Of a DNA stretch of 20,274 nucleotides, positions 5,909-7,519 are shown one piece after another. The translations under genes and the position numbers were made by a program. This DNA is from a virus. Each line of letters starts with the position of its first letter. Position 1 is the stretch's first letter. The stretch lies in IMG/VR virus record IMGVR_UViG_3300021389_001811, positions 1-20,274 of that record. One strand, written 5' to 3'. A model generated the notes under the pieces. It worked only from the letters and a program-made list of their open reading frames with translations, was not told the DNA's origin and did no database searches.

Positions 5909-5937
5909 GGTGGAGGGGTAGTGCCCTCCACCTTTTT
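5909..5937 (+). terminator. Intrinsic terminator after cobS
   Basis: Perfect 9-bp stem GGTGGAGGG (5909-5917) with CCCTCCACC (5924-5932), six-base loop, then TTTTT (5933-5937). It sits 27 nt after the cobS stop and closes that unit. Confidence 0.92.
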
Positions 5938-6256: not shown

Positions 6257-6460
6257 TTGAGTATAACTGTAGAAGTTAGAGGCGGTAACCTTGAAAAAGC
6301 TATGAGAGTTTTGAAGAAAAAGGTTATGAAAGAGGGTATTGTAAAAGAGTTAAGAGCTAGACAATACTATCAAAAACCGTCAGAAATAAAGAGGGAAAAG
6401 AAAAAAGAAGGCATAAAGAATTACAAAAAGAAGATGAAAAAACTGGAACAGGAAAGATAG
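6257..6460 (+). CDS. rpsU: Ribosomal protein bS21 homologue
   Basis: A 67-residue homologue of small-subunit protein bS21. The diagnostic core is clear: ITVEVRGGNLEKAMRVLKKK, then ELRARQYYQKPSEIKREKKK, matching the EVRRREFYEKP segment and basic tail of bacterial bS21. Cellular bS21 sits near the mRNA exit/anti-Shine-Dalgarno region of the 30S subunit. bS21 is among the ribosomal proteins most often carried by phages, including marine ones. The start is TTG, preceded 7 nt upstream by a near-perfect AAGGAGGT at 6242-6249, the strongest ribosome binding site I saw in the window. A phage copy could replace or compete with host bS21 to favour phage mRNAs; that role is inference. The following stretch is non-coding and GC-rich. 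Confidence 0.93.
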   Translation: MSITVEVRGGNLEKAMRVLKKKVMKEGIVKELRARQYYQKPSEIKREKKKEGIKNYKKKMKKLEQER

Positions 6461-6500
6461 AATTCCATGCCTGTGCTTATAATATGAATAAATAGTGATA

Positions 6501-6800
6501 CCAGGCAACTCGTAAGACCTGGGGCGTGGAGGGTAGCTTGACCCATGCATACGCAGAATTACAAGCCGCAGTTAGGTGGTTCTGAGATAACAAAACCACC
6601 ACCTAATTCGGGCTCATTGGTCTTCGTAGCACTACGGTGATAGGCTTAGTAAGATAAGTTAGTATAATGAGGGTGAGACCTACCTCAGCCCACCAAAATT
6701 TAGGGGCGCTAGCGTTAACCTGAATGTGTTTGTTTGGCATTTGCGCCTGGTTCAACACTCAAAAGAACTTAAGCTGCGGCTCGATTTTGGTAGTTTTTTA
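6501..6800 (+). ncRNA. Probable structured RNA of unknown family
   Basis: The interval 6461-6918 has no credible gene. By hand count 6501-6780 is about 49% G+C, against about 32% in nearby coding sequence. It holds a chain of helices: CCAGG/CCTGG (6501-6522); GCGT and GGGT with ACCC and ACGC (6524-6554); a perfect 9-bp stem TTAGGTGGT/ACCACCTAA (6572-6606); CGTA/TACG with loop GCAC (6625-6636); and pairings CTCATT/AATGAG (6613-6618 with 6666-6671) and GGTCT/AGACC (6619-6623 with 6676-6680) that would form a pseudoknot. A TATAAT lies at 6478-6483 but without a good -35. I could not fit tmRNA, RNase P RNA, a tRNA or a known riboswitch. Strand is assumed from the genes around it; ends are approximate. 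Confidence 0.6.
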
Positions 6801-6827
6801 TAGCCTCTAATATACAAAAAACTACCA
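6788..6827. repeat. Long inverted repeat, 12-bp stem
   Basis: TGGTAGTTTTTT (6788-6799) pairs perfectly with AAAAAACTACCA (6816-6827) across a 16-nt loop. It closes the GC-rich region on its right. The T-run is inside the left arm and no T-run follows the hairpin, so it is not a classical intrinsic terminator on either strand; it may fold the 3' end of the proposed RNA. Confidence 0.75.
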
Positions 6828-6852
6828 CTTGAAATATGAAATATAATGACTA

Positions 6853-6860
6853 TATAAATA
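6853..6860 (+). promoter_or_regulatory. T4-type late promoter for hsp20
   Basis: TATAAATA, an exact match to the T4 late promoter consensus recognised by the gp55 sigma factor, 58 nt before the hsp20 ATG in non-coding DNA. A weaker sigma70 reading is also possible: TTGAAA at 6829-6834 with TATATA at 6851-6856 (16-bp spacer). Late expression is the simplest interpretation. Confidence 0.6.
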
Positions 6861-6918
6861 ACTATGATATGCTCATAAGAGGTATCAAACATTAACTTGC
6901 TTAAAAAAGGAGATTAAA

Positions 6919-7374
6919 ATGACAAATCACAAAGCAATTCATTCAATTTTTACTGGACTAAAACCATTTACTGTGGGGTTTGACGATATGTTCGCTCATT
7001 TCGACCATATGGTTGACCATCTACCACACATGACGGCGGCTAATTCTTATCCACCATATGATATTGTAAAGACAGGTTCTTTAACATATGATATTCAGGT
7101 GGCATTAGCAGGCTACAGTAAGAAAGACATTTCTGTATCATTTGAGGATAATATCCTTAAAATCGAATCAGTAAAATCAAAAGAAGAAAAAGAAGTTGAA
7201 GACAATGACGGTGTATTACACAAAGGCATTGCTAAACGAAGTTTCTCAAAAGGCTTTACTATAGCAGATGATGTAGAAGTTAAAGGTGCTGAATTAAAAG
7301 ATGGACTTTTAAAAGTATCTTTAGAGAAGATTGTTCCAGACCACAAGAAAGCTAGAACTATCAATATCAAATAA
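6919..7374 (+). CDS. hsp20: Hsp20/alpha-crystallin small heat shock protein (IbpA-like)
   Basis: A 151-residue small heat shock protein. Residues about 45 to 140 form the alpha-crystallin domain: YPPYDIVKTG opens it, YDIQVALAGYSKKDISVSF and NILKIE follow, and ELKDGLLKVSLEKIVP carries the family's GxL motif. The N-terminal arm is His/Met-rich (FDDMFAHFDHMVDHL), and a short tail (ARTINIK) ends with the I-x-I oligomer-packing motif. These ATP-independent chaperones hold unfolding proteins. Hsp20 is a core-like auxiliary gene of marine T4-like phages, possibly helping virion assembly. A clean AAGGAG ribosome binding site (6906-6911) precedes the ATG. A T4-type late promoter upstream and a terminator downstream suggest an independent late transcript, unlike the neighbouring replication genes. 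Confidence 0.92.
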   Translation: MTNHKAIHSIFTGLKPFTVGFDDMFAHFDHMVDHLPHMTAANSYPPYDIVKTGSLTYDIQVALAGYSKKDISVSFEDNILKIESVKSKEEKEVEDNDGVLHKGIAKRSFSKGFTIADDVEVKGAELKDGLLKVSLEKIVPDHKKARTINIK

Positions 7375-7445: not shown

Positions 7446-7519
7446 GCGGAATTAGTTTAAAAGTAAAACACGAGGTTTCCAACCTTGAGAAGATTGGGCA
7501 GTACAATCATTCCGCTCCA
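7446..7519 (+). tRNA. tRNA-Gly (anticodon UCC)
   Basis: 74 nt folding as a cloverleaf. The acceptor stem is a perfect 7 bp (GCGGAAT with ATTCCGC), U73 is the Gly discriminator, and CCA is encoded. D-stem is GTTT/AAAC; the anticodon stem CGAGG/CCTTG has one G-U pair; the loop TTTCCAA gives anticodon UCC (reads GGA, possibly all GGN). T-stem is GATTG/CAATC. The T-loop GGCAGTA lacks the canonical TTCRA, and the D-loop AAAAGTA lacks the GG pair, so the usual elbow contacts are altered. It sits in the leader of the clamp operon, 26 nt before the clamp start. Confidence 0.85.

Follow-up and report, generated by a model that had tools for sequence, protein, structure and literature searches.

A conserved, modular and pseudoknotted RNA between the bS21 and hsp20 genes of T4-like pelagiphages

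The window analysed here, a virus record of 20,274 bases taken at its full length, had the gene order of the T4-like pelagiphages Mosig EXVC030M and HTVC008M. Its interval 6461–6918 separates two genes on the plus strand, bS21 (6257–6460; Pfam Ribosomal_S21, E 1.5e-16; stop codon at 6458–6460) and hsp20 (6919–7374; Pfam HSP20, E 1e-14; phrog_432, E 2e-43), the placement proposed in an earlier sequence-only reading. That reading also described the interval as GC-rich and devoid of a credible gene, and both statements were borne out. The segment 6501–6780 contained 48.6% G+C against 33.8% for the whole window and ranked first among 2000 windows 280 nt long, values elsewhere reaching 41% at most; the longest open frame did not exceed 51 codons and stops occurred in all frames. 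Further upstream, a strong intrinsic terminator at 5909–5937 follows a CobS-like AAA gene, which makes it probable that transcription of bS21 begins beyond this terminator. Just after hsp20, a tRNA was found at 7446–7516 (Rfam RF00005, 46.8 bits; anticodon TCC (Gly) by inspection) that ARAGORN had missed.

Positions 6463–6827 encode a conserved, modular, pseudoknotted RNA on the plus strand, the same strand as bS21 and hsp20. Its limits were inferred from conservation and covariation and not from mapped transcript ends. The RNA thus lies inside the interval originally delimited as 6461–6918 but does not fill it, 6853–6860 being the late promoter of hsp20 and 6863–6918 a separate, ROSE-like leader. 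Folding energy on its own was only modest evidence for an RNA: the plus strand gave a z score of −2.2, with 2 of 100 shuffles equally good, and the complement −3.3. Strand and reality were therefore settled by comparison. Base-pair covariation, as read from aligned sequences, was decisive for a structured RNA. In an alignment of 29 full-length sequences (A2), 88.1% of cells were paired over 78 pairs in 17 helices, cells with double changes numbered 160 against 52 after shuffling (0/500), and covariation reached 0.248 as compared to at most 0.058 with partners slid. The compensatory-change test on aligned relatives, which the sequence-only reading had called for, was thus met for membership among structured RNAs, since the changes exceeded both shuffled and slid controls. 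G-U cells outnumbered A-C cells about threefold (105:28 and 169:53), which places the RNA on the plus strand. Weaker values in the A2 count were obtained for P1 (72% of cells paired), stem 1 of PK1 and the first pseudoknot stem of module D, partly because of misalignment by MAFFT. A decayed gene, named beforehand as an outcome that would refute the RNA, or a mere chance of composition might be invoked from the only modestly unusual folding energy; this explanation is already refuted by the covariation, and loop indels, stops in all frames and pairing kept across divergent phages speak against it as well. We have hardly any doubt that 6463–6827 is a functional structured RNA.

Module A (6464–6530, plus strand) consisted of helix P1 (6464–6471/6523–6530) and, enclosed by it, an AU-rich loop on the 5' side together with hairpin P2 (6501–6505/6518–6522), whose loop was conserved as C-NN-YUCRUAAG-N. 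P2 was 100% paired in the A2 count, with three of its five pairs doubly changed. RNAalifold, applied to the MAFFT alignment of module A, recovered only P2 because P1 was misaligned; P1 was hence judged by a helix search sequence by sequence. For most of the 31 relatives, this unguided best-helix search put P1 at a distance of 0–2 nt from P2; control values per sequence ran from under 0.01 to about 0.5. Many different compensated versions of P1 were seen, for example CCATGCC/GGCGTGG, CCTACGC/GCGTAGG, TTTTTACGC/GCGTAAAAA and TTTTGTGTC/GACACAAAA; a later count of P1 compensation used rows selected for pairing and, being biased, is illustrative only. Module A was present in those intervals of T4-like pelagiphages that were examined; its form in HTVC008M lacks P1 and has two hairpins with CUCGUAA loops. 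An interaction between UUAUG and the P2 loop (CGUAA) was also weighed but discarded, since the window and many relatives do not support it.

Downstream of module A lies PK1 (6569–6600, plus strand), an H-type pseudoknot with an A-rich loop and covarying stems (stem 1, 6569–6571/6582–6584; stem 2, 6575–6581/6594–6600). By inspection, HTVC008M and distant contigs had this pseudoknot with other pairings. The helix of nine perfect pairs reported from the sequence alone (TTAGGTGGT/ACCACCTAA) is present in the window, but the relatives keep a slightly different helix of 7 bp, GGTGGTT/AACCACC, which is part of an H-type pseudoknot. The pseudoknot suspected at that stage proved real and was not the only one, covariation supporting pseudoknots in PK1, the core and the 3' domain.

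Core C (6605–6693, plus strand) is a separable domain of ~90 nt. It is built from four helices of its own, P1 (6610–6613/6688–6691), P2 (6630–6632/6637–6639), P3 (6644–6648/6655–6659) and P4 (6669–6672/6683–6686), and a pseudoknot of 6 bp (6619–6624/6675–6680). In an alignment of 54 distinct core sequences (A1), these elements were paired in 93.6% of cells; double-change cells numbered 201, shuffles giving 63 (0/500), and covariation was 0.442 against at most 0.084 with partners slid. One pseudoknot pair (column 17) changed from U-A to C-G in 12 of the 54 without a break. Helix letters varied freely, junctions and pseudoknot were fixed and 32 positions were invariant, as would fit a binding or catalytic fold. 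For one core copy (L204), the three main helices came out of folding energy alone. A covariance model of the core, R1, scored the copy in the window at E 4e-25 and found one copy each in Mosig, Aegir, Kolga and 8 of 12 further virus contigs searched; HTVC008M and four other T4-like contigs gave no hit. Wherever R1 detected the core, it was single copy in the record. In an HMM listing, three loci (L167, L184 and L249) showed two adjacent partial hits, which on reading suggests a local duplication inside the core. Another five (L192, L092, L040, L002 and L147) carried core variants with P2/P3 replaced by GAGGTTATGCTCGCCGTATAAAGAG or a similar segment, possibly a further pseudoknot.

Module D (6698–6779, plus strand; helices 11–15 of the A2 count) combines a hairpin (6698–6704/6719–6725) with a 3' pseudoknot (6726–6730/6754–6758, 6736–6738/6745–6747 and 6749–6753/6765–6769) that ends in a conserved AAGCTGCG. 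Helix 13 taken alone was just 64% paired, partly owing to alignment gaps. The RNA finishes with a terminal hairpin at 6788–6827 on the plus strand (helices 16–17), formed by the 12-bp inverted repeat already noticed in the sequence, TGGTAGTTTTTT at 6788–6799 and AAAAAACTACCA at 6816–6827. This hairpin is terminator-like, with a T-run inside the stem; a simple scan did not call it an intrinsic terminator.

Comparison of relatives showed that the RNA is a mosaic in which module A is near-universal and core C and module D are optional. Some intervals combined A and D without C, others A and C without D, and in some an extra segment was inserted before C; modules were gained and lost independently of one another. 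Module D was found only in the bS21–hsp20 interval. Homologues occupy this interval in T4-like pelagiphages including the isolate Mosig, which blastn against 50,697 phage records retrieved at 80% identity over 335 nt. From IMG/VR, 80 loci were collected through relatives of hsp20, and a homologous interval was present in most of them; searching with an exact pattern drawn from the best-conserved segment added further loci, chance matches among them. The number of loci exceeds that of independent phages, several being the same contig fetched twice.

A few features of these relatives deserve mention in their own right. In six loci (L051, L052, L055, L057, L058 and L083), PK1 and the core are separated by an additional stretch (..GGGTTGTG..TTAATACACACACGGTAGTCCACGGTTAGACTAC..) that is likely another RNA module. 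Two annotated hypothetical proteins of Mosig, Mosig_00014 and Mosig_00015 (L002, 3065–3313), overlap the RNA and are probably spurious annotations. Differing ORFs of about 320–390 aa stand between the RNA and hsp20 in Mosig (L002, 3477–4448) and, in the same slot, in L308, L311, L313 and L317; the protein inserted in Mosig (P0001) could be assigned to no confident family. In one subgroup, an ORF lies between bS21 and the RNA (L177, 377–715; L088, 2001–2315), with a weak match to the winged-helix family HTH_39 below the cut-off.

The proposal of an unclassified phage RNA held up well, as no Rfam family fits and covariation is strong across dozens of phages. The scan with Rfam covariance models that had been suggested for it (Rfam 15, 4227 models) returned only the tRNA at 7446–7516 at gathering level in the window, and the RNA remained without a credible match at E values up to 10. 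This bears on two further explanations. The first is a ribozyme that cleaves itself, or a processing element, by which ends of mRNA or sRNA would be freed. The compact, pseudoknotted core can move between intergenic sites, as small phage ribozymes do; no Rfam ribozyme matched even at permissive E values, and we regard this explanation as improbable, cleavage being untested. The second is an anti-defence RNA, for instance a decoy of the pseudoknot antitoxin of a type III toxin-antitoxin system (ToxIN). Several H-type pseudoknots with A-rich loops and an exchange of modules resembling that of accessory genes would suit it. It lacks an Rfam match too, no ToxI-like tandem repeats were seen on reading (no repeat search was made), and we consider it very improbable. 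SAR11 bacteria are not known to carry many systems of this type.

Among known RNAs, tmRNA shares with the present one the presence of several pseudoknots and is also carried by these phages, but neither a tag frame nor a tRNA-like end was noted in the new RNA. As a candidate, tmRNA was rejected: alpha_tmRNA (RF01849) was found elsewhere in Mosig (111505–111808) and in HTVC008M (145103–145414) and not in the window, where ARAGORN detected no tmRNA either. GOLLD, ROOL, OLE and HEARO are likewise long, pseudoknotted intergenic RNAs of unknown function and partly phage-borne. The new RNA differs from them in being shorter (~365 nt), in having no Rfam match, in its mosaic build within one conserved interval and in a 90-nt core that also stands alone. 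A glnA (glutamine) riboswitch was reported in Melnitz and Mosig (PMC9004378), in a paper that also reports tmRNA and not the present RNA; this riboswitch is a structured RNA in related marine myophages as well, but the window gave no glnA match. A survey of pelagimyophages in which Riboswitch Scanner was the only means of detection described no such RNAs (PMC7029224). We did not find a published description of the RNA in the open-access literature, most subscription papers and preprints being outside our scope.

Between the RNA and hsp20, a predicted late promoter of T4 type, TATAAATA (6853–6860, plus strand), precedes the hsp20 leader and is conserved there in almost every relative. The leader (6863–6924, plus strand) forms a hairpin at about 6865–6887 and sets TTGCTT opposite the AAGGAG Shine-Dalgarno sequence. 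It resembles the ROSE element (RF02523) in lying directly upstream of a small heat-shock gene, in opposing UUGCU to the AGGA of the Shine-Dalgarno sequence (by inspection) and in matching the Rfam ROSE_3 model over its full length at 6863–6924 (25.3 bits, E 0.0046). It departs from it in score: in a separate scan 6 of 11 leaders matched with 18.8–32.1 bits (best E 1.5e-4), all below the gathering score of 43. In 68 leaders inspected, TTGCTT...AAGGAG or AGGAGG was near-invariant, and the first hairpin was seen to covary. We therefore describe the leader as ROSE-like and conserved across T4-like pelagiphages, likely a thermometer, without calling it a ROSE member. A phage-borne ROSE-type thermometer is apparently undescribed in the open-access literature searched.

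A long leader of hsp20 had been among the suggestions of the sequence-only reading. The idea that the whole RNA is a leader or riboswitch of this gene is supported by its position upstream of hsp20 in T4-like phages, but it found little favour. A late promoter and a ROSE-like leader of its own serve hsp20 beyond the RNA, an unrelated gene separates the two in several phages, and free-standing cores precede other, unrelated genes. We hold this reading to be highly improbable.

A second promoter-like motif, ATAAATA at 6488–6494 (plus strand), may be a T4-type late promoter with a start near 6500, a conserved AU-rich RNA loop, or both. In 48 of 49 copies of ATAAATA type, the distance to the invariant GG of P2 was 9±1 nt, which makes a late start at P2 plausible in these copies; ATATATA-type copies (n = 26) had spacings of 7–12 nt. 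The window contains four ATAAATA motifs, about 11 being expected. The covariation of P1, upstream of the box, shows that there is or was a longer RNA as well.

Core C was also found alone in unrelated phages. In the siphophages Aegir and Kolga, it comes after a 69-aa ORF that follows bS21. Small ORFs related to this one lie ahead of the core in several contigs, the other proteins of which are similar to those of HTVC033P and phage 023Pt_psg01. One carrier contig (L206) is close to 023Pt_psg01 and two (L173 and L090) to HTVC115P; SAR11 hosts are inferred for the contigs with free-standing cores from these relatives and are not proven. No named relative was found for four other carriers (L207, L218, L180 and L245). 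The named relatives of carrier contigs themselves gave no significant R1 match, and in HTVC115P, to which L173 and L090 are closely related, the intergenic slot held a different sequence that was not unusually stable (z +0.48). Several isolated pelagiphages have no core, which is thus not essential. Free-standing cores usually lay 0–40 nt past a stop codon, with varying genes on both sides. A downstream promoter as a rule was rejected, a promoter-like site being seen in just 6 of about 20. A host-encoded RNA was set aside as well: searching about 85,000 genomes of bacteria and archaea with exact core patterns gave no hit, which does not exclude divergent copies in host relatives.

We do not have proof for what the RNA does. 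Parts of it are shared with unrelated viruses that are known or inferred to infect the same bacteria, which makes a target within the host probable. The trans-acting RNA put forward in the sequence-only reading is the best-supported mechanism, and it remains unproven, with no transcript seen and no partner known. The RNA would arise as the 3' portion of the transcript of bS21, transcription being inferred, and in phages with ATAAATA, the window included, possibly also as a shorter late transcript from near 6500 at P2. It would act as RNA, its structured modules binding a SAR11 host factor identical for unrelated phages, most likely a part of the translation or RNA-decay machinery; this target, too, is inferred. 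The core may serve as a compact docking domain exchanged among phages, with the other modules adding to or modulating binding. In line with such a mechanism are the covariation, the single-copy core and its occurrence in T4-like phages, siphophages and further contigs, the independent gain and loss of modules, the separate promoter of hsp20 and the fixed spacing between ATAAATA and P2; a core shared by phages that have little else in common points to a host partner used by all of them. Against it stand the location of the copies, directly behind bS21 (or a small ORF after bS21) in T4-like phages and usually past stop codons when free-standing, the lack of the core in several isolated pelagiphages and the merely inferred SAR11 hosts of the carrier contigs. 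We hold this host-factor-binding mechanism tentatively, with somewhat less than even confidence.

The same position behind stop codons fits equally well a 3'-UTR element, which closes the mRNA of bS21 or another upstream gene and, in cis only, blocks exonucleases or sets the end. P1 begins 4 nt past the bS21 stop in the window, the RNA ends in a terminator-like hairpin, and free-standing cores lie mostly 0–40 nt after a stop, six of about 20 just before the promoter-like site. Conservation, however, is far above the needs of a simple block, the upstream gene differs among phages, and ATAAATA at fixed spacing suggests an own start in many of them. Such an element is rather unlikely in our view and yet stays alive as the main rival. 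The link to the ribosome through bS21, also part of the sequence-only reading, was circumstantial only: the closeness of P1 to the bS21 stop and of the Aegir and Kolga cores to bS21 speaks for it, but most free-standing copies had no bS21 on the recovered DNA. Going beyond trans action as such, a mosaic RNA of interchangeable modules might give SAR11 phages that are unrelated to each other a hold on a single host machine, possibly the ribosome carrying phage bS21, with the 90-nt core as shared docking unit; this is a speculation that we think unlikely to be right.

SAR11 are the commonest bacteria of the ocean and their phages among the most abundant viruses of the sea, while the takeover of such a streamlined host is poorly known. 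An RNA found across T4-like pelagiphages, with a core common to unrelated phages, is a concrete and testable element of host takeover or regulation. It had been overlooked by protein-based annotation, which in Mosig laid two 'hypothetical proteins' over it. The leader of hsp20 adds a likely phage-borne RNA thermometer. As a mosaic, the RNA indicates that modules of RNA are exchanged among these phages in the manner of genes.
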